A stretch of 64,000 bases of DNA from Fasciolopsis buskii. Its lineage: Eukaryota; Platyhelminthes; Trematoda; Plagiorchiida; Fasciolidae. How positions within the stretch are numbered: the first letter of the stretch is position 1; every line of letters starts with the position of its first letter. Shown one piece after another: positions 782-63,960 of this stretch. The stretch is taken from the NCBI GenBank assembly GCA_008360955.1, contig LUCM01007134.1:1-64000 (forward strand). Direction: 5' to 3'. A model generated the notes under the pieces. The model was given only the letters and a program-made list of their open reading frames with translations. It had not been told where the DNA came from and did not search any database. The translations under genes were made by a program, and so were the position numbers.

Positions 782-793
782 AATATATTTATG
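782..793 (+). CDS. Micro-exon class B (12 nt), end of unit 0
   Basis: Exon aatatatttatg after tcggatttcag, donor GTGAGT. Phase 1 gives Y-I-Y, the aromatic-aliphatic pattern of class B. It precedes a class I exon, so at least one unit begins upstream of it. Joining to 1452 makes split codon GAA (E). Confidence 0.65.
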
Positions 794-3700
794 GTGAGTA
801 GGACGTATTTATTTGCTCAGATAGTCATTTTCATTTATCTACGAAGGAAGAAATTCGGCCGGCCCGCAAGAGATCGCTCAAAAAGGAAAAATGCGGCGGA
901 AAACACCACAGCATTCCCCCTGGAAGGATTTAATTTTATAAACATCCTAAATCGTACATAGTGGAATTTATAATTTTTTTCATCTCAACAACTGAGACAT
1001 GTATTCTGCTCCACTAGTTTGCTGTACCACCACGTTGATTGGTTCATCTGTTGCCCACACACATTCTTACCACTAGCTATCATGTTTCCCGTTTGTTTTT
1101 TGCATATGTGCCTGTGTACGTCAGTTTGCTGACTGTTTGTTTTTCTCTAATGAGCCTGATTCTTATTTGGAGCGGGGATAGATTTGGCTGGCCTATTTTC
1201 AGCTATCGGGTGAATTGAGATAACTATGATGCTGAGATCGACTACCTGCTTATCGAATGTGAAACCGGTTACGATTGTTAGGTGGTTGGACCAAATGTGG
1301 CTATTTATGTGCATAATCATATGTATGAACCCAAATAAGGTCTCCTTAACGCTTAATTGACAAGGCAGAATAAGTAATTCATTTGGTTTTTGATGTTAAA
1401 CAAGCAAACAGTTATCATCTTGCTAAACCCAACACGCCCTATGTCTCGCAGAACTGGAACGTAAAAGTAAGTAAACCCGTTCAATTTGGCAATCCAACGT
1501 CATTCGAGTTTGCCAATAGCTAACTGTCTACTAAGGGGTTATGTGATGGTTTCTGTTCGTGAGCTTTTTCTACTACTATTTCCCCACAGTTTCACTAAAT
1601 TTACAAAGCACAACTACATATGCAGTTCATAATTAGTTGTGTACTGTGCGGAATTGCTTTCGGATTCCACCTCTGACGCACGAAACTAAGATCATCCGGT
1701 CAAACTTAAACCTGGATAGTATCAGACTCAAGATTCACTCTTATTAATGCCCACTAGTGGGCTTGTTCCCCAACAGGCAATTCCACACGATATTCACAAG
1801 TAATTGCAAGCGTTATATAGAAAATAACAAACGCAAAGCAACCTACAGAGGCATGCATGTATTCGCTGCAGACGACCTGATTTGGCGAGAGGGACTAGAC
1901 TGGATTTAACGGGATAGATATGTCCCGTTTGAGGCTGCTGGGCGCTCACAGTGAAATCTGAACAAAACTAAAAGGGTAATTCAAATTAGCCTGGAAGGTA
2001 GTCGAAAGCACAGTGAAGCCATACGGTTTAGAGCTGGAAACCCGGGTTCAATCCCTTGATGTGATGGAGGGGATGCACCACTGAGAAGCTCTAGTGATGG
2101 TGAAACTAGAGTTTGCGGCAGCCCGAGTGTAAGATACGCTGGATGACCCGTGATTAGTGTGTGGAAGAGGGAGTGCAAAAGGCGGTTACCCGACCATAGA
2201 AAAATTAGTTGCTGCAAACATTCAGTAAATGCGATTGCCTAAATCATTCGCGTTTCTACATGAACCAATACAGCATTCAAAAATTTGGTAATCACACTAA
2301 AACTTTTGAGAAAGAAGGTAGGTACGCGGTCTGCTCATTATACTAAAGTGTTGATCCCCGGGAAACTCTGGTCATCCTAACTTCAAAGACAGATTTTAAG
2401 GTGGAAATAGTAATACTATTTGTAGTCACTTAAATAATTTAAGGCATTGTGATAATGTCTATTTTTAATTTGCTATGCAGAGGCAAAAGCATCCCTGTCA
2501 GGTTTGCTGCTTAGGAATTGGCCCATTACGAATCATACTAACTAATGCATTAACCTTTGTTTCAGGACAAATTCATCGTGAGTTCTGAAATCGATAAACA
2601 TTCTAGACAGGACAAGGTGCTATAATGCTTCCTGGGTTAATTTTAACGACAAAGCCGAAACGTTGTTCGGCCCACATCACACTTAATTCTCATTAATATT
2701 TTCCTGTTAAGAGCAACTATAAACCTATGGTATTTTATGTTGTTTGCTGTTCCGTTGTGACAGAATGATCCTGTCAAATCATTCACTCGTCTAATTGTAG
2801 AAGCTAACTTTGAACGTAAGTGCATGTTTGATTCGAACGAGATTCCACCAGGATGCGTTCGGATACGAAATCGATGGGCCTAGTTAAAACAGAATGGTTT
2901 TTATGAACAGTGTTTGCCGATAAACAATTTTGTGTTATTTATACTGGTGAACGTATATATATATTCAAGTACTAAGCTGACTTCAAAGGTATCAGTTGAA
3001 CATAATCCGTTTACAATTATCTGTTTGAGTGCTTCCATTAGCTAGGGATATTTTCACACGTCCATCATTGTTATCTAAGTATATTTATGACAGACACTCT
3101 TCAAAAAAGATATCCTAGTGGTGCTATTATATTTCCCACAGCCATGTAGTCAAATGTAAAGAACTAATTACATAAGTAGACCTCCAGTACGGCGTTTGAA
3201 ATTGTTAAACTTGATAAATCGCGCGACAATATGCACCAACGCTTGGATCAGCCGATCGCCCACAAACTCAAAGATGTTGTTTGGTTTATCCTGCACCAAT
3301 GTGAACAATAGAGACTGCTAATCATTTACGGTTTGTTATTAAAACCTCCTTGGACAAGAGAAGCGGTCCCTCCTAGGCAGTTCGGTGGTATCTGTACGTG
3401 TTGATATGATATAAAATAAGATCCCTTTGTAATAAACGGTACGGAAACACAGCACACGATGGCTAGTTATTCCAAACAGACTTGAATATTGAAAGTAGTT
3501 TTCTGATTGTCATTTTGTCCGGTTGGACTACATCTTAGAATGACGTTCGCATGCTTTAAACTGTGATTCAAATGAATTCCTGTTTCACTCTTAAAGGCGT
3601 TTATTCCATGTTTCAGAGTTCCTGTCCAGTACGTTTTTTATTTATCTGTTTGATCTCAACCTCGTCAAACTATGCCTCGAATTGCAAGTGTGTTTCATGG

Positions 3701-4627
3701 CTTAGTAACTTGCTCAGGTATCCTCTAATATCATGGATAATTACTTGCAAGCCACAATGCTCCGCTAAAAGCGGTCGTGCTTACTTGTAACAGAGCAATA
3801 ACTGTTAAATGGCATGAGCGAGTTAACAGCGTCGAAATTGCGTGTATCAAAACTGAACTGCACACTGAGCCTGACGTTTAGATTGCAAACGTCCCATCAC
3901 CATCAGCGGTACAGCCTGGGTACAGAGGTCATTGCTACAGGCTGATGCTGTCACCCAGGTTGGCTATGAAACGTTGGCCATGTGGACATCAACTTCAAGA
4001 CTCAAAAAATTGTGGAACCTCCCAATCTGAGCCCCAGAACACACCAACATTAAAAATCGTGGAAAAAATGAAATGCGTTCAGAGTGATTTCGCAGTTTTC
4101 AAAAATATCATTAGATTTTCCTAATATGGCGTATGGCAAATTTCGATAGCATACGGACCTAACTGAATCACACATTGTTGTGAAATCTATAATGAAAGCG
4201 CCATAAAATGAAAAATGTTTATCTTCAGGACTGAAAAAAGAAAGTAAGTAATTTTGCGCCATAATTATCTGAGGGATAATGTCCAGTTCATATGAATGTT
4301 TTAGCCACCCGGTTGCCTGTTCACACTGAGACAAGATCACCGAGGGCTAACCTAGTATTCGATATACTATTTGTATTACAGAAACACGACGACGTGAGTG
4401 CTTCAATTGAGACAACAAAGTCAAAAATATTACTGCCGAAATTTATCGTTTCAAGTGATTTTCCTTAAGAACATGCTTCGCATATCATGTTACCATGCGG
4501 CATTCCTGGTCCAGCACGGCTTTCAGTTGGAAAACTTCCGGTTGCAAACCAGCAGAATGTCGTCTAGGGTGCATAAAGTAAGCAAATAGACCATTGTTTA
4601 TGCAGCTGCTGATATAAATCACACACC

Positions 4628-4663
<36 letters not shown>

Positions 4664-7600
4664 TAACTGCATGCCATTCAACAACTTTGTGCTTTTGAAG
4701 TAACTACGCCCCTTAGATAATGCACATCTGTCGAAGTTTCGACTTGAAGTTTCTTGTTCTCGTCCTTTGATCCACTCTGGAGTTCGCTAACATTTTACCA
4801 TTTTTTTACTAGTTCTGGCTTACGAACGTGAGTTTTTAAAACCAGTTATTTTCTGTTTGTTTTCATGTTTCCAAGGAAGGATGTTCAAAAACGGCTCATG
4901 TGTTGGTATAAAACAGCAGGGGAGGGTGGTCAGCCTACCGAACTTCTGTTGGCATAAGACGTACATTTAACATATGGCACAATTTATTTTTGACCTGTCA
5001 TTTTAGATGGCACGTTTTATTTTTCTTGAACGGAAAGTTGAACTGTCTGGCACACGTATTTTGTTCTTGTATTGCTAACGGTGATGTCATCCATTTAGCT
5101 CATATGTGATTAAGCTCGATGGGCGTTACCTGTAACCAGGTTCTTTGAGCAGGAAACAGAAGAATAGGCAATTTACGTGACTGGAGTAAAATTGCATGAG
5201 CCCTGTTATTAATTGTACTAGATCACCTAAGTCAGGTTGTGGTAATCAACAGTGTATGAAGATGGATAAAAACAGAAAAGTTTGGTCTAATAACAAATTC
5301 CACCCGCTCCATCTACAGTCCAAACAGTCCACTTTGTCGACCAGAAACGATCGAAAAGTGAGCTAGTTCATCTTCAGGGTTTTAAAGTACTCCTGCTGGG
5401 AGTTAGTATGAGAAAGTTCATCCGACTTAAACACCCGCCACATGGACCTGATCGGCTGCTTACACCTCACAGAGACTGATCATATGCCCTATTCACTGGG
5501 TACGACCACCTGTAAGCAAACTGCCCTCTTTAGCAAGATGAATTAACAGAAATCGCGTCAGTCGAGGGTCTGCTTCCCCAACACAATGCCATATTCGATG
5601 ATCGGGATGGTAATAACTATAAGTTATACGGCCTTGTAATGAACCATAAAGTCGGAATTCCTTAACCTCAGTAGGTATTTCAAGACCATCATCGAGTATT
5701 CCGAGTCATAGTTTACATATCGACGGCTTATTTCTCCTTCAAAGTTGTGGAGTGGGTTTTCTATGGTTAAAAATGTGCAAACTGTGGCAAAAACTAGTCA
5801 CGAGTTCAGCAACTATGTTTATTTCCTTAAGGCAGACATTCATAAGAATAGCCGAACTCAAACAATTCCCATCACTGGATTTTGAATTGGCTCACCCGGG
5901 GCCTCATGCTTTACAGATTACTGTGCCTTTCGCTCTTTGCCAACGGCTGTCCACGAATGCTGTCGAACATTTTTACTTTATATCCGAAGTAACCTGTAGA
6001 AATCCCTCTAAATGCCGAGTTGCAACCTTTAATGCTGAAGGTTAGCGGAGGTTCATGACACTTATCTCCTGTTTCTTGGTGGTTTGCATAAGAAATCAGT
6101 TACTGGGTACTTGGCACGAGAAATATCATTTAGGATATTTGTTATTTACTTGCCTACTGCTGTCGTAAAATCTCTTGAATGGGCACACCATATTTCACGT
6201 GGGGATAATAATCTCGCGTTGCTTAGGTTGAACGCAAACCAAGATACTTAGTCGGTTGACGGTACTTTCACGGTTAGCATGTCACGAGTGACAAGCAATA
6301 AGTGAAGCAATTGTATTTTGTTAAATCCCAGGAGGGTTTGAACAGCACAGCCAGAGCGAGACTGCTTTATCACTGACGGTGGTAACTCACCACCTGATAT
6401 CGAATTGTCACTGGGCGGGAAGAGCGCGGAAGTTGAAATCAGATTAACCGTACGGTACCTGTGGCGCTCAGTCGACGTGAATAGTCCAGTTTTAACAACA
6501 AGGCAGCCTTAAACAGATCAGGCTGACAAACAAAGTGAACCAGCCAGACGATAACCCCGATAATCGATTTAACGAATGGCAGTCCAACAACCCTGGATGC
6601 CCTTTCATTGCCACAATGAATAAGTTAGGTTTTCAACTTATAACACAACATTTGTAACCGTGTGGTTTGCTTTGCTCTAGTTGGAACTCGTGGAAACGGG
6701 TGATTTTCGACCCGTACGATTGAAAATTAGAGATCACACTTAGAAGCAGTTAGTTGTTTTAAGTAAGTTGTACAGCGGACGCTTTTGTGTTCTGGCGAAA
6801 TCGTCGTTGAATGTTTATCTTTTGATTGTTCGCCGTTAGGAGTAATCAGATGATCCGTATTAGATATTTTGTCTTGCCACCAGCTTAAGAACTTGACTTA
6901 TGCCACACTAGGGTTTTCATTATTACTTTGCCTACCACAATACATTAAGGTAATGCTAATCAGTTCAGGGCGTTTCCAAGCACTAAGGCATGCACTGTTG
7001 AAAACTGTCCGCAAACTGGAAACTTAAATGCAAGGATTGTTTCTGCAGAAGCTTATTCAGCGCGAAAGTTCAATCCGATAAGCCAATGACGCAAACAGTA
7101 CTCGACAAAATAATGAATCACATGGGGTCTCAGAGGAGTGGAAATCCCGAGATTTTCTGTCCATTAACAGTCGGCGTGCTTTTGTCAATAGCTTTGCCAG
7201 AAAAATCTGGAGGAATTCTCATGGTACGCAATTTCGTTGTAAAACATTTAGGACGCAAGTAACAGGATCAGTGAACCTGACCACCTAACCCTCCAATAAG
7301 CAGTTGCACGAATGCTATCGAGTAACGTGGACCGAGTACATGATGCTCCATTCGGATTAGTCATGGATCATTTAAACACACGCTGTTCTGCTACTTTAGA
7401 ATCCCGAGGCTATTTGACTATTGTTTACGTACAGACTATTGTAAGTGACCTTCAGTTCAGTTGTAGAGATCAATCGGATTGAGCGTCCGTTAGGCCAAAG
7501 AGGTCAAAGCTTTCAGTTTAACTTGCACGGAGCAGTTCTTCGGTCCATGGCGGCTTACTGTTTTCAGAATTCTAACCATATCTGACCTATGGGGACTTCG

Positions 7601-55600: not shown

Positions 55601-58600
55601 TCACATTATTTTTTTTACGGTCATTCATAGTCAATATATAATTTTGTCTCGCAGAGCTGATACGACAACGTAAGTGATGACGAACATGCACCCTGCCAGT
55701 TAGTTCGGTTTTGGTCTGCATAACGAAACAATCGAGAAATTTTGTGCATCCTATTACCTATAAACCTTCTTTCATTTCAAAGAAGATGCTAAAACCATCA
55801 GATTGCACCATCTTTGCAACATCGTATTGCCGTGGTTTCATTGGTTCACATAGATCAAGTGGTCAATTGTGATAGGCCTAAAAATCAGAGTCAGTAGGGA
55901 AGCGGCGCTTATCGACATCCGAATCATAAATAAACAAAAGGCAATGGAAGGTAGTTAAAGTTGCACATTGCAGCCGAGAAATTGATGTAGATACCACATA
56001 AACTGAGCTGAAAATAGAGACAGACCTACGAAGATCCCACACACTCTTAGAAGCCGACTGTTCGGCGGTACATTCCCTTAAAAATCGACCGTAAATCGTA
56101 CCTCAACGTTTTGCACTGAGTCAACAGAACCCCAAATCAGTTCAGCTAGCAATTACAGTTATCCAACACGGTCGTGGAAATGACAGCAGTTAGACAGATT
56201 CAAAGTCATTTGCAACAATGCTTATAGTTCGAGGCATATACAAGCAAACCAACATCAAACGAGCATATCGCGCTGTGCGACCAAGCCAAAGGTAGTCCGT
56301 ATTTAAATTATCGTTGGCTCTGAACACGTGAGAATTACAAACAAACAGATCATTCGCTTAGTTCGAGGATGCAGACAGAAGGCTCCGAAGGGGTTAAGGA
56401 TAAGATATGCCATGAGGGCATCAAATGGCACATATTGTTGCGGACAGCAAAATCCAAGTCACACTTGAAACAAGCAAGGAGGGGTAGGAGTTACAACTTT
56501 GGGCTCCACATTTGCAATCCGCGTCTCAGTCGGAATGTTCATTATAATCAGCAGTACATAGCGTGCGAGCAGCTTTGACTAATTCACCTGGTGCACACAG
56601 AAATTGGTATGAACAATTAGGCACTATCCACATATATAGATATATATATATATATGGTGTATGTATGTGCCAAGATGAAACACGAAGCAAAAAGCAGTAC
56701 ATCCAATGAAACTGTGCAATAAATAAAATCAGGTTGGTAGTGCTAATCAGCTTTGCACTTTCTGTTGTCAGTTCAACCACTTGTTTACACGAGGTGACTG
56801 AAACCAACTGACAGGCCTAATCAACTCCAGAACGGATTGTTGGGCACGAACTTGTTGTAATTTTTACAACTTCATCGCGCAACCAAAGTCGAGTAGCCAG
56901 TATAGGCTGCAGGATCGGATTCCGACTAAATAAGCAACAGCTTGGATACGTTGATGAAACCTGTGTTACGAAATACACTGCGCCTTCGTGACATCTGACC
57001 AGGTTGGAAAACCATTCAGGTAAGCATCCGGCTGCCAACACCATACTGACTAGTAGATATAGAATTTTAATACAACAGTACGCATGCTCAGCAATTTAAT
57101 AATTCAGATTGCTGGCATGCTTTCGATTTCTAATAAGATGTCTTATGATGGTCAAACTATTTACAACACCGGTTTTTCTTAGAAAATCAACGAAGTGAGT
57201 AAAATGTTTGTAATTATGGCAAGATAAAACAATGGAGTGATTTTGCAGTTAGAACCTACCAAGTGAAAACCATAGAAGCACTTTAGAACCAAAATATGAG
57301 TCGGTCGTTTTCCTTGCACTGGCCTCAGGTCAACATGAAAAATCACAATACTACAGCCTCGGGTGCCTCTCCATGATTTCTTCATTTCACAACGGTTTCT
57401 TCTAGTTCTGAGACAAATTTGGGGCACATCTGGTGTGCATTGGTGATGCTGAAACCGAATTAGTCGAATGAAATCTCTGAGGACACTCTCGCGAGTTTCA
57501 GTGAATAAGTAAACTTTCAAAGAGCATCATGAACCGATTCATACTCAGTTCGTCATCTTATTGGTTCACCTTAATGATTTATGTCATGCTTTCAAATTCG
57601 CTTTAATTCGAACAATCTGAGTTACCGTACCACGTATATGTGCTCAAAATGTATGCATCACGCAGGAGGATGCAAACGAGCAAAGGAATATGGCATTTGC
57701 GTTTCAGCTGATTGCGACCACATTTTTGTGGTGAAGGCTTTGAGCCGCAGCATTGACATAATGATACATTGGTTTACTGGCAGTATGTCTCGAAATGCGG
57801 AGTCTTTCTATGTCTGGAAATCAGCACAGGGTGATAAGTCTGTTGTGGTCATGTGAAGTGAAAGCGCCTGGAACTCGTATCACCTGTGAACCTGGGAGCA
57901 AGGTTAGAATTGGCCGAGTTCCAGTGCAACGATAAGAAGCAAGCTGATTTTTGTTCCAAATTCGGAAGCGAAAGAGGACGTTGCATGAAATGAAAACTGT
58001 CAAACAGCTAATAGACCCAAGTGGACAAAAGCAGCCAGTCAGTGAGTTTATAGGTTTATTCTACTGAAAGGGACTTGTGCTGACCAGTGAGGAGCTACAT
58101 AAGTTTTTTCTGCTGGTGACCACTGCTTTGGTTTTTCATTTTCATGCTATCTTAGCAAGTAACAGTCTTACAAACTATTTACTGCTAGCCACTAAGCGAT
58201 CACTGCAATTCACTATATTTCATCTACTCATAGAGCTAAGCCACAACAGTGAGTTTTTCATTTTGAGAAAGTGAGCATTTCTGTATAGCATGGTTAAAGC
58301 ATGTAAGTAGAAAGTGAATAATAAACCGTGAATCGCAGTGTCACGTGTACTGGCCCATTCATAAAATATATAAATATGTTGAAAAAGCTATTGGTTTTTA
58401 CAAATATCGAGCTGAAAACAATCGGTCCTTGTTATTCATGTGGGTTTAAGTCTACGTTTCTTACGTAACGGGATTTTAGCCTAAAAAGTGAATGGAACTG
58501 ACTGTGTACTTAGGTCTTTACAAATGACTTACGAAAAAGATAACATGATGTGACATAGAAACTAATATACTGCATATCATGGTAAGTAGCTCATGAAAGG

Positions 58601-61600
58601 GTCCAGTCGGTGAGCGGAATTAAATTACGGCTTAAATTTACTAAATGGTATATTTTCCAGGTTACATACACGGTAAGTCAAGCAACGTTTCAACTCCTGA
58701 ATTTATAGGTACTACAACTGCGCAGAGCTGCTACTCCATAATCTCGTGCTTTGTTTAGCGAAATCCAAGACATCAAACTGCTTTAAACAGTCGGCTTAAA
58801 ATTGTTGCTTTTCTTTTATTTCGGAGATCGCAAAATGTTTCAAGTTCCCAATAAAAAGTGCGATAACAATAGAATTTCACATATCTTAGCTTGCAGAATG
58901 AATGCGGCATGTTCAGAAATGCACAATGAACTGTCATAATACTGATCGAAACTGTATTAATGTCATCCATATTATTATTCCAATTTATCTACAAAAATGG
59001 AGACTTTCTTGTGCTTACCATTTGAGCCCCAACTGGAAGCGAGTAACGAAAACAACTAAACTAGGCACAATTAGCAAACAATTAAACAAATTGCAGGGAA
59101 CTGTGCGGATAAGCCATGAAAACAGTATAAGCCCCAATAACAAAGGTAGAATAACCGGAGAGCTATTCATGTCCGGAAGCCAGATCAATACCTAATGGGT
59201 TCATATCAAAAAGCACGAAATCGGGGGCATTCATTTATAAGTTGACATACGAGACATATTACCATGTGGTCGGTTAGATTGAAGGACATTTACAACATAA
59301 TGTCCCAAAACAGTAAGCATAAGTAAACCTCGGACACTGTTTACAAATTATCGGGTTGTCATGTAAAAGGTTACTTCTTGTGGTTATGAGCAAGCAGCAT
59401 TCGTATGCAATGTAAACATTTCATCCGAATAAGTAGTAGTCAGAAAACTATAATTTGTGTCAGTGGAAGCAGGAGAGAGATTGTAAACCCAGTCGTCGAC
59501 TAAAGACCGAGGACCGCAGTATATTTATTGTGAACTAGTCAGCACAAGCAAACGGAAAATGGAAAGCAGAACCATGGACAGCTAACCATGTAAAGACACT
59601 TTTTCCATTGAAAATTGACGTCATCCCCGTTATCGCAATCTATCATTGAATGGAATTCATTATTTTTTCTGCGTTCTGCTGTCGCATTTGCAATGAGGGC
59701 ACGAAAACCATCTTGTGCAATTTTTTATACATCTAGTTGTACCAGCTGGCGGATACCCTTAAGAGGAACCGGTTGGTCTGCAAGTACAAATGAGACAAAC
59801 CATTAAGGAGATTTGAACAAGTCTATAGACGAGGAGAAGAATGGTCGAAACAATAAGTTGCTTGATGGACGAGGGACCGAGCCGTATCGCCCGGCTTGAC
59901 TGAGAATTGTGTGATTGTAAGGCCACTTAAATTGGATGCTGTCAGTTTAAAAGTAGATATTTTATTTTTAAAATTCTTTTATGTAAATCGTTATCGCTGA
60001 CATAAAGTGCTTCTTTTATGAGCGAACGACTACCTATCAGTTTAAGGCGAACAATTAACTCTACCGAATGATAATCCCCTACATTAGGTCTTCATGAGCA
60101 CAGTAAGCTTTCTTTTACATTACCGTCAGATGAAAACAGATTTCCCTTTTCTGCTGCAGTACTGCTTTGTTCAGCTAGGAATTCTTCTGTCACTTTTGCT
60201 ATCGAACCATATTTTGTCCAAACTAGGAAGGGAGATTTGTTTTACTGAGGTATTTAACTTTTGCATTTTCAGTAAGAGAGCAAAGTAAGCACCAATAAAA
60301 TTTGTAATCGTCACCTAGAGAAATAGGGCATAATATGGTTACAATTGGCATTATGAATTCCCATCAGATTTTGTTGTACCACCTCAGATTCTTGTTGTTA
60401 GTGGTCACGCTAACAATGTAAAATATTGCAATGTCATTTTCTTGTCGAAAATTTCAAACACTAAATAGTTGTACCAGCTCAAGGTCGTGGAGACGAGTTG
60501 AGATTTGTCTTCCCGTTGAGGTTCTTTTAGCCCTATCACCTAGACAAAATGGGGTGGGAGTGAAATAGCAAGAATTACAACCTTCCGGCCAACAGGATGC
60601 TGTCCTTTAGTGAGTTGTGCACGATCAAATAGTTCATTGGTTGCTGGCCTTGTTACATTCTGTCGACATTCTGTAATCCACTTCTGCAGTTTCCGCCAAC
60701 TTTGGTATTTTTCGGGTCCAGTTTCTTCTTGGCTATCTTTTCGTGGTCTTCAAACAGGCGTCACGGGTTGATGTGTTAAGTTGGTCTAGCTTTTGTTCTT
60801 TGCAAAAAAATGATTTCAATCGGTTTTCTTTCGATATCTATGGTACACACTTTTCAAGACGCTATAGATTTTGGAGCAAAGCTTTATAACAGCCACAAAA
60901 GTGTCTTGGTATAGTTATGGTAATGAATAATAGGCACTAGGTTTTTTAATACAATTCAAGACCAACGAGTGGGTGTACAGCAAAGTTCCTTATCTTGTCC
61001 ATGAATGAAATGCATATGGTTCCAGCCACACTGTATGACACGTGAAAATACAGGAAAAGAAGTCGCCAGAATTTTGTTGTATACTCCCTCATTCACTGTA
61101 GACTAAACCGACAGGTCTCGTAATTTTTTGCACAATACCACATGGGCATGCATGAATGAATGTCTGAGAAGATTAACTAGAAAAAAGGTACTTTTGTGAC
61201 TTCACGGACATATTCTGTTATACGAAGTGCAATCGAGTATATCTGTACCCAGCTAGTGTACCGTGCTCTCTGTTCATATTTGTAAATTCATAAAGTGCTT
61301 TCATCACCATCTCCGTCACTTCAAATGACATCAGTTTTGTACGTTTACCCAGCCGATCTGAGCAAGCTAATTGACTGCCAAAAAATATTTCAAACGATAA
61401 ACTAGCTAGTTATGTGCCGGTTTCCAATTCGCGCCGCTTCGTTTTCTCGTTCTAGAACTGGCCTACAAAAGTACGTTTGTAATTCCATTCACATTCGATA
61501 CATCAAAATAGCAAGGAAAGTGAACGCGATATTTTTTTAAATTGCGGCTTGCCAGAAACCGCGCATGATTTCGGTCACAACATCAAACTGGAAACAGCGC

Positions 61601-62217
61601 TATCACTTGGACATCAGAAATATCATTCCGGCTTGGGATGGACCCATCTTAGATACAATTTTGGTCCTTGGATCCCTGAAGTCTGCCGCAGAGAAATCTT
61701 CTGATTAGTCTTCGAGAAACTGAAGAACACGAAAAATCAAAACTCGTACGCATTTGGCTTTGGTTTATATCAACTAAAGACCAAACGTTCTTTCCAAAGC
61801 AGCTTCAAGCGCGTTATACTTCTTTCCGCCAGACTCATGATGGCAATATGAATACTCAGCAGGCTAACAAAGAGTTTGGACTGTTGTCGCATTCCTAAGC
61901 ATAGATGGAAAATCACAATAAAGGGGTCATACCGTTTGTTTTCTATGCTTCACTGTAATATTGCGGGGAAACGGAGACGTGGCCACCAAATGTTAAATGT
62001 CACGAAATCATCTACGGTCTGGAATAAGTAAAGCACGGTAAGAATGATTTTTTATTTCCATCCATCCCAAACATGTATACTGACTCTTTCATATATGATG
62101 GTTGTCCATCATTTCACCTATTCCTCTGCTGCTGTCCTAAAATTTGGTGAATACTTTCGAGCGACAATCCCCATTTTTGTGCCGTTTGTTTTTTCCTAAA
62201 ATTAGGTTATTGTCGCT
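782..62217 (+). CDS. Giant micro-exon gene with alternating 15-nt and 12-nt exons (locus span, partial at both ends)
   Basis: Sixty-seven candidate exons lie on this strand, each flanked by AG and a donor, mostly GTAAGT, GTGAGT or GTAAGC. Lengths are 15 nt (32), 12 nt (34) and 27 nt (1). All introns are phase 1: each exon supplies two bases of a split codon, then 3 or 4 full codons, then one base. No split codon is a stop. Phases 0 and 2 are closed, for example by exons at 11183, 14331, 36578 (phase 0) and 9637 (phase 2). Lengths alternate 15/12 and sequence classes repeat I-A-II-B, giving an 18-residue repeat such as ELQKAKEHYKSEFKKFLH (unit 9). The family is not recognised. The closest known idea is trematode micro-exon genes, whose tiny symmetric exons encode secreted proteins. 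Neither a first exon, signal peptide, last exon nor poly(A) site is identified. Cell location is unknown. Skipping any exon would keep the frame. Confidence 0.85.
1452..1466 (+). CDS. Micro-exon class I (15 nt), unit 1
   Basis: Exon aactggaacgtaaaa after cctatgtctcgcag, donor GTAAGT. Reads L-E-R-K in phase 1, the leucine-first class I pattern. Split codon with 2566 is AGA (R). Confidence 0.8.
1975..2200 (+). mobile_element. tRNA-derived SINE, copy 1 (degenerate)
   Basis: A Pol III B-box-like GGTTCAATCC sits at 2045-2054, with an A-box-like stretch about 45 bases before it. Downstream are CTGAGAAG (2081) and GAAAC (2102), where hammerhead-bearing fluke SINEs carry CTGATGAG and GAAAC. The tail ccgagtgtaag..ctggatgac (2133-2148) matches the second copy near 49.1 kb. 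Ends are approximate. It lies in the intron between exons 1452 and 2566, in gene sense. tRNA-headed SINEs with hammerhead cores are known in schistosomes (Sm-alpha); family membership here is inferred. Confidence 0.55.
2566..2577 (+). CDS. Micro-exon class A (12 nt), unit 1
   Basis: Exon gacaaattcatc after aacctttgtttcag, donor GTGAGT. Reads Q-I-H. Strong pyrimidine tract. Split codon with 2801 is CAA (Q). Confidence 0.8.
2801..2815 (+). CDS. Micro-exon class II (15 nt), unit 1
   Basis: Exon aagctaactttgaac after cgtctaattgtag, donor GTAAGT. Reads A-N-F-E, the class II pattern with an aromatic third residue and acidic fourth. The 223-nt intron before it is among the shorter ones. Split codon with 3617 is CAG (Q). 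Confidence 0.8.
3617..3628 (+). CDS. Micro-exon class B (12 nt), unit 1
   Basis: Exon agttcctgtcca after ttccatgtttcag, donor GTACGT, a variant also used at 34699 and 61471. Reads F-L-S. The slot was predicted by the alternation (a class B exon was needed between 2801 and 4229), and F-L-x is the class B signature. Preferred over a 12-nt candidate at 3706. Completes unit 1: ELERKRQIHQANFEQFLS. Confidence 0.75.
4229..4243 (+). CDS. Micro-exon class I (15 nt), unit 2
   Basis: Exon gactgaaaaaagaaa after tgtttatcttcag, donor GTAAGT. Reads L-K-K-E. Only 138 nt of intron separate it from the next exon. Split codon from 3617 is AGA (R). Confidence 0.8.
4382..4393 (+). CDS. Micro-exon class A (12 nt), unit 2
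   Basis: Exon aaacacgacgac after actatttgtattacag, donor GTGAGT. Reads T-R-R; class A exons are polar and often basic. Split codon with 4813 is CTT (L). Confidence 0.8.
4632..4662. repeat. (CA)n microsatellite
   Basis: About 15 CA dinucleotides inside the intron between exons 4382 and 4813. Confidence 0.9.
4813..4827 (+). CDS. Micro-exon class II (15 nt), unit 2
   Basis: Exon ttctggcttacgaac after ccatttttttactag, donor GTGAGT. Reads L-A-Y-E. The last class II exon in the window (61456) reads L-A-Y-K and is very similar. Split codon with 7958 is CAT (H). Confidence 0.85.
4828..7957 (+). other. Long intron of unit 2, no recognised element
   Basis: About 3.1 kb without an exon that fits the pattern. 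Splice-like signals here fail on length: aaacgatcgaaaa before GTGAGC (5345-5357) is 13 nt, and actatt before GTAAGT (7435-7440) is 6 nt. ttgttttaa before GTAAGT (6754-6762) is 9 nt and has a poor acceptor. Predicted ORFs in this stretch show no recognisable protein. Confidence 0.6.
7958..7969 (+). CDS. Micro-exon class B (12 nt), unit 2, with GC donor
   Basis: Exon atttcactgaag after a strong tract and acceptor (cgttttacccgcag). The donor is GCAAGT, not GT. GC-AG introns are a known minor class that usually has otherwise ideal donor bases, as here (AAG|GCAAGT). Reads F-T-E, the aromatic-first class B pattern, and fills the one missing slot between 4813 and 8506. Split codon with 8506 is GAA (E). 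Confidence 0.65.
8506..8520 (+). CDS. Micro-exon class I (15 nt), unit 3
   Basis: Exon aacttcgttcaaaaa, acceptor ggctaaaatag with the pyrimidine tract about 20 bases further up (aattttttactattctt), donor GTAAGT. Reads L-R-S-K. Split codon with 9031 is AAA (K). Confidence 0.75.
9031..9042 (+). CDS. Micro-exon class A (12 nt), unit 3
   Basis: Exon aacaccttcaac after cgtcaattcacag, donor GTAAGT. Reads H-L-Q. Split codon with 9637 is CGA (R). Confidence 0.8.
9637..9651 (+). CDS. Micro-exon class II (15 nt), unit 3
   Basis: Exon gaacattatttaaag after a long tract ending taactttgtaccttgcag, donor GTAGGT. Reads T-L-F-K in phase 1. Reading one base later gives a TAA, so it helps fix the frame. Split codon with 10509 is GAA (E). 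Confidence 0.8.
10509..10520 (+). CDS. Micro-exon class B (12 nt), unit 3
   Basis: Exon aatttcttcagc after gtttttgaaaattccag, donor GTAAGT. Reads F-L-Q. Nearly identical in bases to the class B exon at 27613 (aatttcttcaca). Unit 3 reads ELRSKKHLQRTLFKEFLQ. Confidence 0.8.
11183..11197 (+). CDS. Micro-exon class I (15 nt), unit 4
   Basis: Exon taatgaatatgaaaa after ttcttctaccccgcag, donor GTAAGC. Reads M-N-M-K in phase 1; phase 0 would begin with a stop. M replaces the usual first leucine. Split codon from 10509 is CTA (L). Confidence 0.75.
11429..11440 (+). CDS. Micro-exon class A (12 nt), unit 4
   Basis: Exon aggccaatataa after actgtgcacaatttcag, donor GTGAGT. Reads A-N-I. Split codon with 12567 is AGA (R). 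Confidence 0.8.
   Translation, partial: RPI
12321..12543. repeat. 223-bp intronic direct repeat, copy 1
   Basis: Starts cataaactatttgaatg and ends gactcgacgagtgt. It matches 12892-13114 with 12 differences counted by eye, mostly transitions. It ends 23 bases before exon 12567. No coding content seen. Confidence 0.9.
12567..12581 (+). CDS. Micro-exon class II (15 nt), unit 4
   Basis: Exon gaactgccctccacc after caacttattattccag, donor GTGAGT. Reads T-A-L-H; leucine replaces the aromatic third residue. The class B exon that should follow was not found. Confidence 0.8.
12892..13114. repeat. 223-bp intronic direct repeat, copy 2
   Basis: Second copy of 12321-12543, same orientation, offset 571 bases. 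Immediately after its end lies caatattctc followed by GTAAGC, a donor with no acceptor at a usable distance (the nearest AG gives 13 nt). The duplication may have replaced the acceptor of an exon. Confidence 0.9.
13887..13913 (+). CDS. Fused 27-nt exon (class I + class A), unit 5
   Basis: Acceptor cgctttcatccaacacag, donor GTAAAT at 13914. The length is exactly 15+12. Phase 1 gives Y-T-E-Q, then C, then K-L-T, with no stop. Bases 902-907 of the run (GTAAAC) look like a former donor after the first 15 nt. Units on both sides require a class I plus a class A exon here, which suggests loss of the intron between them. Split codon with 14331 is TTG (L). Confidence 0.55.
14331..14345 (+). CDS. Micro-exon class II (15 nt), unit 5
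   Basis: Exon tgaatgaatacgaaa after tccacttgtttgttttttag, donor GTAAGT. Reads N-E-Y-E; phase 0 would start with TGA. Excellent splice signals. Confidence 0.85.
15182..15193 (+). CDS. Micro-exon class B (12 nt), unit 5
   Basis: Exon aatatctgaaag after gaaatttattttgtag, donor GTGAGT. Reads Y-L-K. It precedes a 4.7-kb intron. Confidence 0.8.
15194..16690 (+). other. Intron sequence before the LINE
   Basis: No exon fitting the pattern and no recognised protein. The only structure seen is a short (aaatggtag)n run, about three copies, at 15880-15910. Confidence 0.5.
16690..19620 (-). mobile_element. LINE (APE-type non-LTR retrotransposon), decayed, antisense to the gene
   Basis: Minus-strand fragments in retrotransposon order. 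Near 19.45 kb is an endonuclease start with LNVICLSQTW. Then a reverse transcriptase segment resembling G-P-x-G-L near 17.9 kb. Then the catalytic box FADD at 17313-17324 inside KFADDIVLCQSLFKQSDL. Reading frames shift and stop between fragments, so it is dead. The box and surroundings resemble CR1/Jockey-type elements and the second LINE at 51-54 kb; the exact clade is not determined. It fills the intron between exons 15182 and 19865. Boundaries are approximate. Confidence 0.75.
19865..19879 (+). CDS. Micro-exon class I (15 nt), unit 6
   Basis: Exon aactgaaaataaaaa after tacggtctatcttttag, donor GTGAGT. Reads L-K-I-K. Split codon from 15182 is GAA (E). Confidence 0.85.
20143..20154 (+). CDS. 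Micro-exon class A (12 nt), unit 6
   Basis: Exon aaagggaacaaa after gttgtttttaaattag, donor GTAAGT. Reads R-E-Q, the same tripeptide as the class A exon at 60273. Confidence 0.8.
21198..21212 (+). CDS. Micro-exon class II (15 nt), unit 6
   Basis: Exon aggaagcatttaaga after actgatttttttgtatcag, donor GTAAGC. Reads E-A-F-K. Split codon from 20143 is AAG (K). Confidence 0.85.
21442..21453 (+). CDS. Micro-exon class B (12 nt), unit 6
   Basis: Exon gttttctccgag after gtgcacaaattttcag, donor GTAAAT. Reads F-L-R; similar in bases to class B exon 26568 (cttttctccaag). Unit 6 reads ELKIKKREQKEAFKSFLR. Confidence 0.75.
21454..23284 (+). other. Intron of about 1.8 kb, nothing recognised
   Basis: No exon fitting the pattern. 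A 15-nt candidate at 22875-22889 has an in-frame TAA. A short TA run lies near 23070. ORFs here have no recognisable product. Confidence 0.5.
23285..23299 (+). CDS. Micro-exon class I (15 nt), unit 7
   Basis: Exon aacttgaggagacca after gtcttttacttcaacatag, donor GTGAGT. Reads L-E-E-T. Split codon from 21442 is GAA (E). Confidence 0.75.
23574..23585 (+). CDS. Micro-exon class A (12 nt), unit 7, first of two alternatives
   Basis: Exon gtgaacctatag after ccgaacaattctcttag, donor GTAAAT. Reads E-P-I. It and the next exon both occupy the single class A slot of unit 7, so they may be alternatives. The proline is unusual for a helical repeat, and this is the weaker of the two. Confidence 0.5.
   Translation: MNL
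23676..23687 (+). CDS. Micro-exon class A (12 nt), unit 7, second of two alternatives
   Basis: Exon gacatttgaaac after a clear pyrimidine tract (cttgtccctttctttc) and acceptor acttaacaag, donor GTGAGT. Reads H-L-K. With this exon, unit 7 is ELEETRHLKLRAFERYLQ. Only 90 nt separate it from 23574-23585. Confidence 0.7.
23834..23848 (+). CDS. Micro-exon class II (15 nt), unit 7
   Basis: Exon ttagggcgtttgaac after tatgttattttatttcag, donor GTAAGC. Reads R-A-F-E. Excellent tract. Confidence 0.85.
24078..24089 (+). CDS. Micro-exon class B (12 nt), unit 7
   Basis: Exon ggtaccttcaaa, acceptor catgctacacaaag (weak tract), donor GTGAGT. Reads Y-L-Q. Split codon from 23834 is CGG (R). Confidence 0.7.
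24523..24537 (+). CDS. Micro-exon class I (15 nt), unit 8
   Basis: Exon ttctggagggcagaa after ctactaaaatattgcag, donor GTAAGT. Reads L-E-G-R. A second GTAAGT at 24561 only 24 bases further on does not form a usable exon. Confidence 0.8.
25471..25482 (+). CDS. Micro-exon class A (12 nt), unit 8
   Basis: Exon aatacaaagccc after ttttgattgtcctcaaag, donor GTGAGT. Reads Y-K-A, the only class A exon with an aromatic first residue. Split codon with 26054 is CGT (R). Confidence 0.75.
26054..26068 (+). CDS. Micro-exon class II (15 nt), unit 8
   Basis: Exon gtgttaacttcgagg after gacttattttaaatag, donor GTGAGT. Reads V-N-F-E, close to A-N-F-E of unit 1. Confidence 0.8.
26568..26579 (+). CDS. Micro-exon class B (12 nt), unit 8
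   Basis: Exon cttttctccaag after ttctgttatttgcctttaag, donor GTAAAA (weak). Reads F-L-Q. Unit 8 reads ILEGRKYKARVNFEAFLQ. Confidence 0.7.
26774..26788 (+). CDS. Micro-exon class I (15 nt), unit 9
   Basis: Exon aactccagaaagcaa after attattgcatttcaag, donor GTAAGT. Reads L-Q-K-A. It starts the most compact full unit: four exons within 851 bases. Confidence 0.8.
26985..26996 (+). CDS. Micro-exon class A (12 nt), unit 9
   Basis: Exon aggaacattaca after aaaattcgtgttttag, donor GTGAGT. Reads E-H-Y. Confidence 0.8.
27340..27354 (+). CDS. Micro-exon class II (15 nt), unit 9
   Basis: Exon agtccgaatttaaaa after tttcaattgcctgttctag, donor GTAAGT. Reads S-E-F-K. Confidence 0.85.
27613..27624 (+). CDS. 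Micro-exon class B (12 nt), unit 9
   Basis: Exon aatttcttcaca after actcgtgttttag, donor GTAAGT. Reads F-L-H. Its acceptor flank (cgtgttttag) resembles that of exon 26985. Unit 9 reads ELQKAKEHYKSEFKKFLH. Confidence 0.85.
27999..28172 (+). other. Unassigned 57-codon open stretch with acceptor and stop, inside an intron
   Basis: After taatttcctacag, a reading frame in phase 0 runs 57 codons to TGA. It is rich in charged residues (SEKNPERKSTVKLRVPFGDL near the start, ending LLKSASDDWI). It reads more like protein than most ORFs here, but I do not recognise it. Its phase is incompatible with the micro-exons (phase 1 stops after seven codons). It could be a relic or a chance ORF; a 226-codon minus-strand ORF overlaps it. 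Confidence 0.2.
28304..28318 (+). CDS. Micro-exon class I (15 nt), unit 10
   Basis: Exon aactaaggcaaaggg after ccgtcaacttatgttttag, donor GTAAGC. Reads L-R-Q-R. Split codon from 27613 is AAA (K). Confidence 0.8.
28609..28620 (+). CDS. Micro-exon class A (12 nt), unit 10
   Basis: Exon gaaaaaagcacc after atcggctcccttttccag, donor GTGAGT. Reads K-K-H. The following intron is only 88 nt, the shortest among the confident exons. Confidence 0.85.
28709..28723 (+). CDS. Micro-exon class II (15 nt), unit 10
   Basis: Exon tctaccgatatgaaa after tatgatgttgtttccag, donor GTAAGC. Reads Y-R-Y-E. Split codon from 28609 is CTC (L). Confidence 0.85.
29170..29181 (+). CDS. Micro-exon class B (12 nt), unit 10
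   Basis: Exon ggtttcttgaaa after ccaccttccatggaacag, donor GTAAGT. Reads F-L-E. Unit 10 reads KLRQRGKKHLYRYERFLE. Confidence 0.75.
30495..30509 (+). CDS. Micro-exon class I (15 nt), unit 11
   Basis: Exon aattatggatgcaaa after ttttcgcgactgttttag, donor GTAAGT. Reads L-W-M-Q. The 1.3-kb intron before it shows nothing recognisable. Confidence 0.8.
31079..31090 (+). CDS. Micro-exon class A (12 nt), unit 11
   Basis: Exon aacatcgcatag after gctaactttttatttcag, donor GTATGT. Reads H-R-I. A TA run lies in the next intron at 31134-31149. Confidence 0.8.
   Translation, partial: NIA
33327..33341 (+). CDS. Micro-exon class II (15 nt), unit 11
   Basis: Exon gcgagatgtaccaag after atcttttgctcaatttcag, donor GTAAGC. 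Reads E-M-Y-Q. The 2.2-kb intron before it (31091-33326) shows no recognised element. Confidence 0.85.
33943..33954 (+). CDS. Micro-exon class B (12 nt), unit 11
   Basis: Exon aatatatcatga after attttgtctaatccttcctag, donor GTAAGT. Reads Y-I-M. The next intron is 94 nt. Confidence 0.8.
   Translation, partial: NIS
34049..34063 (+). CDS. Micro-exon class I (15 nt), unit 12
   Basis: Exon agttgaaaaggcaca after gctgaataaactttcag, donor GTGAGT. Reads L-K-R-H. Split codon from 33943 is AAG (K). Confidence 0.85.
34325..34336 (+). CDS. Micro-exon class A (12 nt), unit 12
   Basis: Exon aacgccaatacc after acatttccgtcgctacag, donor GTGAGT. Reads R-Q-Y. Confidence 0.8.
34684..34698 (+). CDS. Micro-exon class II (15 nt), unit 12
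   Basis: Exon gagctgagctgcaaa after tgcgtttgtcccattttcag, donor GTACGT. Reads A-E-L-Q; leucine replaces the aromatic third residue. Confidence 0.75.
35984..35995 (+). CDS. Micro-exon class B (12 nt), unit 12
   Basis: Exon aatatgctgatt after tgtttcctgcgtgcttcacag, donor GTGAGT. Reads Y-A-D. It ends in T; the split codon with 36147 is TAC (Y), not a stop. Confidence 0.8.
36147..36161 (+). CDS. Micro-exon class I (15 nt), unit 13
   Basis: Exon acgcagaaaaaaaga, donor GTAAGC, with a long tract upstream (ttttctgtctttcctctttg) and acceptor cgaaatgaag. Reads A-E-K-K, lacking the usual first leucine. A second AG at 36151-36152 would give a 9-nt exon instead; 15 nt fits the alternation. Confidence 0.6.
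36578..36589 (+). CDS. Micro-exon class A (12 nt), unit 13
   Basis: Exon taaatgaatata after atgctctgggtttttcag, donor GTAAGT. Reads N-E-Y in phase 1; phase 0 starts with TAA. Confidence 0.85.
37322..37336 (+). CDS. Micro-exon class II (15 nt), unit 13
   Basis: Exon aagcaaaatacgcag after tttatatcgtcaccttttag, donor GTGAGT. Reads A-K-Y-A. Confidence 0.85.
38256..38267 (+). CDS. Micro-exon class B (12 nt), unit 13
   Basis: Exon cttgtgccaaag after tcatttcgatttctgatag, donor GTAAGT. Reads C-A-K; cysteine takes the aromatic position, as in exon 41148. Confidence 0.75.
38998..39009 (+). CDS. Micro-exon class A (12 nt), unit 14
   Basis: Exon gacacaatacat after tgtacatggttattttag, donor GTGAGT. Reads H-N-T. 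The previous exon (38256) is also 12 nt, so a class I exon between them is missing or was not recognised. Joined directly to 38256, the frame is kept (GGA). Confidence 0.7.
39664..39678 (+). CDS. Micro-exon class II (15 nt), unit 14
   Basis: Exon cactgaaacgaacat after tttggtttttttgcag, donor GTAAGT. Reads L-K-R-T, which looks like class I; it is placed in the class II slot because the flanking classes require it. Confidence 0.8.
41148..41159 (+). CDS. Micro-exon class B (12 nt), unit 14
   Basis: Exon actgtctcaaat after tgtcccccgtcaattttgtag, donor GTGAGT. Reads C-L-K. Split codon with 41393 is TAT (Y). Confidence 0.8.
41393..41407 (+). CDS. Micro-exon class I (15 nt), unit 15
   Basis: Exon atttgagtacaatca after cacttatctttttctcag, donor GTAAGT. 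Reads L-S-T-I. Followed by a 6.1-kb intron, the longest in the window. Confidence 0.8.
41408..44280 (+). other. Intron sequence before the Penelope-like element
   Basis: No micro-exon fitting the pattern was found. ORFs near 42.0 and 43.8 kb are short and not recognised. Some of this may be older repeat sequence. Confidence 0.45.
44290..46420 (+). mobile_element. Penelope-like element (reverse transcriptase), decayed, sense to the gene
   Basis: Reverse transcriptase blocks appear in order across shifting frames. RFYGLPKIQRPDIPIRP lies near 45.35 kb and a motif A with SFDVVSLHTSVP near 45.58 kb. Motif B, TDGMAMGSPISPIVANLF, lies near 45.76 kb. The catalytic WYIDD is at 45870-45884, one frame away from motif B. 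Then FLDC and a DKYLDFSSNHPQC segment lie near 46.0-46.1 kb. Together these are typical of Penelope-like elements. In-frame stops and frameshifts show it is dead. No GIY-YIG endonuclease domain is recognised after it. The first 500 bp are assigned with less certainty. Confidence 0.8.
46421..47508 (+). other. Intron sequence after the Penelope-like element
   Basis: No recognisable coding or repeat structure. A GTGAGT at 47342 has no AG at a usable distance. Confidence 0.45.
47509..47520 (+). CDS. Micro-exon class A (12 nt), unit 15
   Basis: Exon agcagcaactcg after atcgcattgtgttttag, donor GTAAGA. Reads Q-Q-L. It maintains the alternation across the Penelope-like insertion. Confidence 0.75.
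48439..48453 (+). CDS. Micro-exon class II (15 nt), unit 15
   Basis: Exon aatgggcattcaaag after cgctaattgctattttcag, donor GTAAGT. Reads W-A-F-K, similar to E-A-F-K of unit 6. Confidence 0.85.
48990..49165 (+). mobile_element. tRNA-derived SINE, copy 2
   Basis: TGGCACAATGGC at 49009-49020 matches a Pol III A box. A degenerate B box (gggtgcgatggc) follows about 30 bases later, then a hammerhead-like core at 49074-49099. The tail ccgagtataag..ctggatgac is shared with the copy near 2.1 kb. Sense to the gene, within the intron between 48439 and 53980. Confidence 0.6.
49071..49102 (+). ncRNA. Hammerhead ribozyme-like core in SINE (degenerate)
   Basis: CTGATGAG at 49074-49081 is followed by a 4-bp stem (gctc/gagc) with loop aaataa, then TAAAC at 49095-49099. 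Self-cleaving hammerheads have CUGAUGA, stem II, GAAAC. Here the conserved G of GAAA is T, which should abolish activity. I could not build a convincing stem III or cleavage site. The order tRNA boxes then core matches the Sm-alpha SINE of schistosomes. Confidence 0.35.
49170..51000 (+). other. Intron sequence between SINE and LINE
   Basis: No exon fitting the pattern and no recognised protein or repeat. Confidence 0.45.
51047..53870 (-). mobile_element. Second LINE (APE-type non-LTR retrotransposon), decayed, antisense to the gene
   Basis: On the minus strand, from high to low coordinates: an endonuclease segment with MIAGDYNQA near 53.15 kb, where G-D-[FY]-N is an APE motif. Then a basic linker with RRCRNNNRALI near 52.5 kb. 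Then GVLQGCILPPYLFS at about 51.82-51.85 kb. The RT catalytic box is YADD at 51747-51758 in RYADDAALCQSVL. Stops and frameshifts are present. It shares the ADD..LCQS environment with the LINE at 17 kb, so the two are probably related. Confidence 0.8.
53980..53991 (+). CDS. Micro-exon class B (12 nt), unit 15
   Basis: Exon gctttctctttg after aagctgtctgttcttttcag, donor GTAAGA. Reads F-L-F. It lies about 110 bases beyond the LINE. Confidence 0.75.
55655..55669 (+). CDS. Micro-exon class I (15 nt), unit 16
   Basis: Exon agctgatacgacaac after atataattttgtctcgcag, donor GTAAGT. Reads L-I-R-Q. The 1.7-kb intron before it shows nothing recognised; an ORF at 54.4-54.7 kb is of unknown meaning. Confidence 0.85.
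56636..56657. repeat. (TA)n microsatellite
   Basis: TA-rich run (atatatagatatatatatatatat) in the intron between exons 55655 and 57183. Confidence 0.85.
57183..57194 (+). CDS. Micro-exon class A (12 nt), unit 16
   Basis: Exon aaaatcaacgaa after acaccggtttttcttag, donor GTGAGT. Reads N-Q-R. Split codon from 55655 is CAA (Q). Confidence 0.85.
58234..58248 (+). CDS. Micro-exon class II (15 nt), unit 16
   Basis: Exon agctaagccacaaca after atatttcatctactcatag, donor GTGAGT. Reads L-S-H-N, lacking the aromatic third residue. Confidence 0.75.
58661..58672 (+). CDS. Micro-exon class B (12 nt), unit 16
   Basis: Exon gttacatacacg after aaatggtatattttccag, donor GTAAGT. Reads Y-I-H. Confidence 0.85.
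60088..60102 (+). CDS. Micro-exon class I (15 nt), unit 17
   Basis: Exon gtcttcatgagcaca after tgataatcccctacattag, donor GTAAGC. Reads L-H-E-H. The next intron is 170 nt. Confidence 0.75.
60273..60284 (+). CDS. Micro-exon class A (12 nt), unit 17
   Basis: Exon taagagagcaaa after tttaacttttgcattttcag, donor GTAAGC. Reads R-E-Q in phase 1; phase 0 would begin with TAA. Confidence 0.85.
61456..61470 (+). CDS. Micro-exon class II (15 nt), unit 17
   Basis: Exon aactggcctacaaaa after cttcgttttctcgttctag, donor GTACGT. Reads L-A-Y-K. Confidence 0.8.
62206..62217 (+). CDS. Micro-exon class B (12 nt), unit 17; last exon found
   Basis: Exon gttattgtcgct after a superb tract (gtttgttttttcctaaaattag), donor GTAAGT. 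Reads Y-C-R. The perfect donor implies at least one more exon downstream, which should be class I (15 nt). Confidence 0.85.
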
Positions 62218-63627: not shown

Positions 63628-63960
63628 ACAGATATATATATAAATATATATATATAAACTTAGTTTGGATCAGAACGGCGCAATAAAATTTGCTACTGAC
63701 TGCACGCCTGCTAACCTTTAATATGTATTTATGTACAGATGAACAATTATATGAACACATAAACAGACACAAATCCGTGCACATACATATATATATATAT
63801 ATACATGAATGATTACATACATGCGTGCACGTATGCATGCATGTATACATACGCATTTACATGCATATATCTGTATAGACACAGACATGCTTACGTACAT
63901 GGATGCACGCACACAGTACATGCATGCGCAAGTTTATACACAAACGGATGGGCCAACATA
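63628..63960. repeat. TA/TACA-rich microsatellite cluster
   Basis: Runs of TA at 63630-63656 and 63786-63804, then alternating purine-pyrimidine sequence built from ACAT, GCAT and TACA steps. ORFs called here on the minus strand are low-complexity artefacts. Confidence 0.85.

Follow-up and report, generated by a model that had tools for sequence, protein, structure and literature searches.

A predicted gene of 65 micro-exons of 12 and 15 nt, ordered in four-exon units of 18 residues

Can exons of only 12 or 15 nt follow one another over some 61 kb as parts of one gene, and what would such a gene encode? The question is raised by a locus of Fasciolopsis buskii, within the first 64,000 nt of contig LUCM01007134.1 (the window, that is, the whole stretch of DNA analysed here). 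The original prediction proposed a single gene of at least 66 micro-exons of the two lengths. A gene of many 12- and 15-nt micro-exons is indeed a well supported prediction from the sequence, because the two lengths peak on one strand, one reading frame is open, recurring residues are written in synonymous codons and modules are predicted in held-out DNA. The proposal of one micro-exon gene is thus partly supported, but it had missed the four-exon, 18-residue order. New here are the A and B classes within both lengths, and hence a four-exon unit.

Modules of two lengths on one strand

Candidate modules were counted as AG, L nucleotides and GTRAGT. In the whole window the + strand carried 30 modules with L = 12, two of them within a GTAG microsatellite at 1-54, and 22 with L = 15, the remaining lengths from 3 to 60 giving 0 to 8 each. 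On the minus strand, said from the outset to lack a comparable series, both lengths gave 0. When a YAG acceptor was demanded and the first 60 bases were excluded, the + strand had 22 (L = 12) and 21 (L = 15) modules and the minus strand again none of either; the 86 other lengths in the range 3-90 averaged 1.71, none exceeding 6. By the same criterion 200 first-order Markov sequences reached a maximum of 4 for L = 12 or L = 15, in keeping with the expectation that chance would supply few modules; neither the minus strand nor random sequence yielded equal numbers. Adding a pyrimidine-rich acceptor to the YAG criterion gave 11 (L = 12) and 16 (L = 15) modules, and all other lengths of 3-200 gave at most 2.

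Splice-site weights were then learned from the seeds of both lengths, and modules were picked by those weights only. At the loosest threshold the + strand held 35 and 34 modules (L = 12 and L = 15) and the minus strand 3 and 5, other lengths having a mean of 5.5. The largest count among these other lengths, 12 at L = 71 (AG, 71 nt and GTRAG on the + strand), is a slight excess that disappears with stricter sites; 71 is not divisible by three, and the excess is probably due to chance.

A model built from one half of the window was applied to the other half, with the reverse complement, the reverse and the complement as controls. With the threshold at 12 it found 22 and 29 modules and none in any of the three controls; with the threshold at 10 the numbers were 24 and 37, and 0-2 per control. 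At threshold 12 the held-out modules alternated in length with their neighbours in 19 of 21 and 18 of 28 pairs, and only 1 of 51 contained an in-frame stop. Length peaks and held-out prediction together bear out the proposed + strand series over 61 kb.

Strict alternation had also been claimed, and alternation is nearly strict: among the 69 blocks picked above by splice-site weights only, 54 of 68 neighbouring pairs alternate (34.5 on average under permutation; 0 of 20,000 shuffles as high), and the curated chain described below breaks the length order twice. The strictest seed set, which omits exons with donors other than GTRAGT, does not alternate significantly when taken alone (26/42, p 0.11), as might be expected if the modules arose by chance or from a sequence repeat that mimics exons. 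Such an origin is vanishingly improbable in view of the Markov sequences, which never exceeded 4 modules of either length where the window has 22 and 21, the held-out controls near 0 and introns that have almost no sequence in common.

Assembly of the exon chain

A chain was built by dynamic programming in which alternation was rewarded and blocks with an in-frame stop were barred. It comprised 71 modules, with 62 of 70 neighbours alternating and a stop codon formed at one junction. Seven modules (8090, 31898, 38256, 42031, 47150, 51266 and 53481) were removed by hand and one with a GC donor, at 7958, was added by hand. The curated chain holds 65 exons on the + strand between 782 and 62217, 33 of 12 nt and 32 of 15 nt, and its 62 alternating neighbours out of 64 are partly a product of construction, through the hand curation and a method that favours alternation. 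The 69-block set contains 61 of the 65 exons, those outside it being 7958, 23676, 24078 and 26568; a further 8 of its 69 blocks are absent from the curated chain, two of which are second acceptors of chain exons. The proposed number of exons was therefore about right, at 65 after curation, 69 by splice sites alone and 71 by dynamic programming. The exons listed below are based on the dynamic-programming chain and the four-class path described further on, except for exon 9, which comes from a gap search and the four-class path.

Predicted micro-exons (coordinates in the window, strand, number, length in nt with class)
782..793, +, micro-exon 1, 12A
1452..1466, +, micro-exon 2, 15B
2566..2577, +, micro-exon 3, 12B
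2801..2815, +, micro-exon 4, 15A; second acceptor at 2804 would give 12 nt
3617..3628, +, micro-exon 5, 12A
4229..4243, +, micro-exon 6, 15B
4382..4393, +, micro-exon 7, 12B
4813..4827, +, micro-exon 8, 15A
7958..7969, +, micro-exon 9, 12A; weak, GC donor, hand-picked to fill a gap in the order
8506..8520, +, micro-exon 10, 15B; weak acceptor
9031..9042, +, micro-exon 11, 12B
9637..9651, +, micro-exon 12, 15A
10509..10520, +, micro-exon 13, 12A
11183..11197, +, micro-exon 14, 15B
11429..11440, +, micro-exon 15, 12B
12567..12581, +, micro-exon 16, 15A; order breaks after this exon
14331..14345, +, micro-exon 17, 15A
15182..15193, +, micro-exon 18, 12A
19865..19879, +, micro-exon 19, 15B
20143..20154, +, micro-exon 20, 12B
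21198..21212, +, micro-exon 21, 15A
21442..21453, +, micro-exon 22, 12A
23285..23299, +, micro-exon 23, 15B
23676..23687, +, micro-exon 24, 12B; weak acceptor (AAG)
23834..23848, +, micro-exon 25, 15A
24078..24089, +, micro-exon 26, 12A; weak acceptor (AAG)
24523..24537, +, micro-exon 27, 15B
24754..24765, +, micro-exon 28, 12B; order breaks after this exon
25471..25482, +, micro-exon 29, 12B
26054..26068, +, micro-exon 30, 15A
26568..26579, +, micro-exon 31, 12A; weak donor
26774..26788, +, micro-exon 32, 15B
26985..26996, +, micro-exon 33, 12B
27340..27354, +, micro-exon 34, 15A
27613..27624, +, micro-exon 35, 12A
28304..28318, +, micro-exon 36, 15B
28609..28620, +, micro-exon 37, 12B
28709..28723, +, micro-exon 38, 15A
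29170..29181, +, micro-exon 39, 12A
30495..30509, +, micro-exon 40, 15B
31079..31090, +, micro-exon 41, 12B
33327..33341, +, micro-exon 42, 15A
33943..33954, +, micro-exon 43, 12A
34049..34063, +, micro-exon 44, 15B
34325..34336, +, micro-exon 45, 12B
34684..34698, +, micro-exon 46, 15A
35984..35995, +, micro-exon 47, 12A
36147..36161, +, micro-exon 48, 15B; weak acceptor
36578..36589, +, micro-exon 49, 12B
37322..37336, +, micro-exon 50, 15A; second acceptor at 37325 would give 12 nt
38998..39009, +, micro-exon 51, 12A
39664..39678, +, micro-exon 52, 15B
41148..41159, +, micro-exon 53, 12B; A/B order breaks after this exon
41393..41407, +, micro-exon 54, 15B
47509..47520, +, micro-exon 55, 12B
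48439..48453, +, micro-exon 56, 15A
53980..53991, +, micro-exon 57, 12A
55655..55669, +, micro-exon 58, 15B
57183..57194, +, micro-exon 59, 12B
58234..58248, +, micro-exon 60, 15A
58661..58672, +, micro-exon 61, 12A
60088..60102, +, micro-exon 62, 15B
60273..60284, +, micro-exon 63, 12B
61456..61470, +, micro-exon 64, 15A
62206..62217, +, micro-exon 65, 12A; last found

Exons start on average every 960 nt, with a median of 609 nt. Introns have a median of 597 nt and range from 88 to 6101 nt, and the coding total is 876 nt across a 61,436-nt span. When the gaps were searched with relaxed site criteria, with GC donors and with twelve exon lengths from 6 to 42 nt, 7958-7969 alone was adopted; it fits its gap best, and its donor GCAAGT would belong to a possible GC-AG intron. 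No convincing candidate for a last exon was found in the window 3' of the array; the acceptor at 62375 leads into 14 residues followed by a stop. The ends of the predicted gene lie outside the window, so its start, signal peptide and stop are not visible within it.

The order of lengths is broken at two places, a third break affects the A/B order only, and at two places in the series an expected exon is missing. These breaks (12.6-14.3, 24.8-25.5 and 41.2-41.4 kb), like the large gaps at 41.4-47.5 and 48.5-54.0 kb, could mark the borders of two or more micro-exon genes lying in tandem. That arrangement is unlikely, as frame and exon types run on across every break and a search, made at the 3' end only, revealed neither a first nor a last exon within the array. 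The reading that we hold to be probable, judged from the DNA sequence, is that the 65 are internal micro-exons of one long gene whose product is likely alpha-helical and composed of 18-residue repeats, each encoded by four micro-exons.

Reading frame and splice signals

In the 69 blocks chosen by splice sites alone, stops number 17, 16 and 0 in the three frames, the open frame being the one in which exons start at codon position 2; in a stricter set that frame has stops in 0 of 43 blocks, against 13 and 9 in the other frames. Each of the 65 exons begins at the second base of a codon and has a length that is a multiple of three, so that as a matter of arithmetic any of them could be spliced in or out with the frame kept. 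Little can be concluded from the absence of stops at the 64 neighbouring junctions: of the 2,080 ordered exon pairs only 26 would create a stop if joined.

Leucine at recurring positions uses all six of its codons (11, 8, 7, 3, 2 and 2 times). Codon position 2 is the most alike among copies (identity 0.408 and 0.411). Variability at position 3 does not exceed that at position 1 (identity 0.336 against 0.313 and 0.331 against 0.337), for which reason the codon-position test is only mildly supportive.

Donors are strong on the intron side, with GTRAGT in 45 of 65. Exons usually end in G; the last base over the 65 exons is A in 31, G in 15, C in 14 and T in 5. Branch-point-like CTRAY showed no excess (14/65 against a random 0.19), and among splice-enhancer-like k-mers near the exons there was a weak excess of A, T and C runs only.

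The three slips in order, some weak splice sites, the longer introns found beyond position 41 kb and a retroelement remnant inside one intron would be in character for a former micro-exon gene that has decayed and is no longer spliced. We regard such a silent remnant as very unlikely, because it would hardly retain strong donors, exact lengths in copies that have about 0.4 of their bases in common, and a stop-free frame throughout a 69-block set that was chosen with stops ignored.

A four-exon unit of 18 residues

Along the joined product, residue similarity is highest at a lag of 63 (z 8.2), followed by 18 (7.3), 36 (5.4) and 45 (4.7). The strongest lag is accordingly 63 and not 18; half-unit slips would account for the high values at 45 and 63. 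A basic repeat of nine residues is ruled out by the lag of 9 (z 0.6).

Mixture models that made no use of order divided each length into two classes. The two 15-nt classes alternate A/B in 25 of 31 neighbouring pairs (p 0.00035) and the two 12-nt classes in 24 of 31 (p 0.0007). A path through all four classes assigns 16 or 17 exons to each, with 3 slips (mean 7.9 and minimum 4 in 100 permutations) and a score of 233.7 against a permutation maximum of 206.0. The repeat unit is 15A-12A-15B-12B, or 54 nt, which encodes 18 residues or about five turns of an alpha-helix. In the 14 complete units [FY] stands at position 4 in 12 and at position 7 in 13, Leu at position 8 in 9 and at position 11 in 12, and Lys at position 15 in 8; this per-position picture is inflated, because the classes had been labelled by a fit to these very residues.

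The copies have diverged far. Base identity is 0.38 to 0.44 between copies of the same class, 0.31 between the two classes of one length and 0.26 by chance; closeness within the array does not raise it. Sequence shared between introns amounts to one 224-nt stretch in two adjacent introns and a 15-nt match. With copies so diverged and introns that have almost nothing in common, the spacing is not that of a recent satellite, which is ruled out. The expansion would be old, the sequence having drifted far while lengths were held, either by selection through the register of the helix or because there are few easy ways to alter so short an exon.

The predicted protein

The predicted product within the window has 289 residues and a net charge of +40, and consists of 15.9 percent Lys, 12.8 percent Leu, 11.4 percent Glu, 9.7 percent Arg and 2.1 percent Gly, with 2 Cys. 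It contains 0 Pro, a value also reached in within-exon shuffles (mean 8.1, minimum 0 in 2,000 shuffles). Mean helix propensity, for which low values denote helix, is 0.37; the other two frames give 0.54 and 0.62. Over the 14 units mean hydrophobicity is positive at positions 4, 7, 8 and 11 (0.74 to 1.00) and barely so at 2 (0.08). Other than at positions 4, 7, 8 and 11 the unit is rich in Lys, Arg and Glu. At 3.6 residues per turn these four aromatic or leucine positions fall on the same side of a helix.

The helical moment of the 14 units is 0.243; 5,000 within-unit shuffles gave 0.067 on average and never more than 0.218. An 18-residue period with a hydrophobic face was found in this moment and at lag 18, but hydrophobic periodicity in the whole uncorrected chain is not significant, its peaks at 4.48 and 3.52 having a power of 12.8 and 9.8 where the 99.9th percentile of the null is 15.6. 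The product would be an amphipathic helix with one hydrophobic patch every five turns. Searches with the joined product returned 0 relatives in Pfam, PDB chain sequences and 5.8 billion proteins. It may be a secreted protein, if other micro-exon genes are a guide.

A role in generating diversity has been proposed for schistosome micro-exon genes (MEGs), and exon-skipping variation is described in PMC7653826 and PMC5825161. The frame-neutral exons of the present locus could likewise be skipped freely to give many variants, the helix geometry being incidental; 65 of 65 are divisible by three and in one phase, and the few stop-forming pairs would place little restraint on which exons are joined. 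Such free skipping of single exons would scramble the 18-residue order, which is kept across most of the array, and in schistosome meg-8.2 an exon was skipped in 1 of 10 sequenced clones (PMC12998952). A generator of diversity is hence a rather doubtful reading.

How the array may have grown and worked

The array would go back to an old expansion, by tandem duplication, of a cassette of four exons and four introns. As 18 residues make five turns, the four-exon cassette would be the natural unit of gain and loss, and the smallest that keeps the hydrophobic side of the helix aligned. Spliced mostly at full length, the gene would yield a helical rod, attached to partner helices or a membrane through its hydrophobic patches, one per five turns. 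For constitutive splicing the one exon-skipping clone of meg-8.2 in ten (PMC12998952) is a precedent that counsels caution. Skipping of single exons, if it occurs, would rotate the patch by 40 degrees for 4 residues or 140 degrees for 5, and loss of a pair by 180 degrees.

A further step would be that exon lengths are tuned to the alpha-helix and that splicing acts as a dial on the rod. We consider this rather improbable; if true, removal of a cassette would shorten the rod with its hydrophobic face kept aligned and removal of one exon or a pair would turn that face by the above angles. No such splice-coded helix is described among the best-ranked literature matches.

If transcribed as predicted, the locus puts micro-exon splicing to a hard test in nature, with more than 60 consecutive exons of 12 or 15 nt. 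Exons this short are considered too small to be bound by splice factors at both ends simultaneously. On the same condition the locus links the length of exons with the geometry of a protein, 54 nt being 18 residues and five turns, and presents an array that looks old, with sequence near background and exon lengths unchanged. The signature of exon geometry could reveal hidden genes of such type where gene finders and sequence searches fail.

Relation to known micro-exon genes

Micro-exon genes have been defined by exons of less than 70 nt and divisible by three (PMC7653826), a rule that holds here as far as it can be applied, to 65 consecutive predicted exons of 12 or 15 nt with two expected exons missing. 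In Schistosoma mansoni, according to PMC10526429, MEGs contain between 10 and 20 very short exons, the majority measuring 15 bp. MEG-8.2 is among several MEGs with reported amphipathic helices (PMC12998952), and MEG-2.1 isoforms have been termed intrinsically disordered (PMC10399815). The locus resembles schistosome MEGs in its many tiny exons divisible by three and separated by long introns. It differs in having 65 exons of two lengths only, against 10 to 20 exons of 6 to 81 bp, and in its ordered lengths and 18-residue repeat.

The original prediction knew of no such gene this long or with a two-length rhythm. As to length, the megacycle gene of the aphid Melanaphis sacchari spreads 118 exons over about 100 kb; the passage compared makes no mention of a two-length rhythm (PMC9168663). 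Megacycle encodes 2,092 residues with 15 long repeats that arose by internal tandem duplication and have intron positions in common; it has itself no obvious CYC motifs, and nearly all internal exons of aphid bicycle genes start at codon position 2 (PMC9168663). Many small internal exons of the same phase, starting at codon position 2, are thus found in both systems. Unlike the present locus, with 13.5 nt of coding sequence per exon and 18-residue repeats, megacycle has about 53 nt per exon and long repeats. The CYC motifs of aphid bicycle genes are cysteine-based and are not found here, where there are 2 Cys in 289 residues. The G+C content of the window, about 0.40, is higher than is usual for aphids.

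Fibrillar collagen genes, whose 54-bp exons each encode six Gly-X-Y triplets, also match a protein repeat to 54 nt of coding sequence and 18 residues. In collagen a single exon holds the 54 nt; here four exons do, and the product is predicted to be helical with little Gly.

No gene with a 12/15 rhythm was found among the best-ranked literature matches, and neither two-length alternation nor an 18-residue repeat is described in the passages of the MEG and aphid literature compared. The locus would be a micro-exon gene of known kind in a new form, and it may belong to a flatworm MEG family.

Repeats and other features of the window

The 224-nt stretch is a direct repeat (95 percent) at 12320-12543 and 12891-13114, which flanks exon 16 at the first break in order; its second copy has no exon after it.

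The intron at 41408-47508 contains pieces of open reading frame on the + strand at 44813-46324 which by their motifs look like a degenerate Penelope-like reverse transcriptase; such a remnant is not diagnostic of a fluke. One piece had one protein match at 63 percent identity and a second piece had 0. Seven intron ORFs, including the two longest pieces of this remnant, gave 0 matches in Pfam, and tRNA and Rfam searches of the window also gave 0.

An inverted repeat of 112 nt (90 percent), at 44733-44844 and 46654-46765, flanks the Penelope-like remnant. Simple repeats lie at both edges of the window, the GTAG microsatellite at 1-54 and AT- and CATA-rich repeats at 63632-63900.
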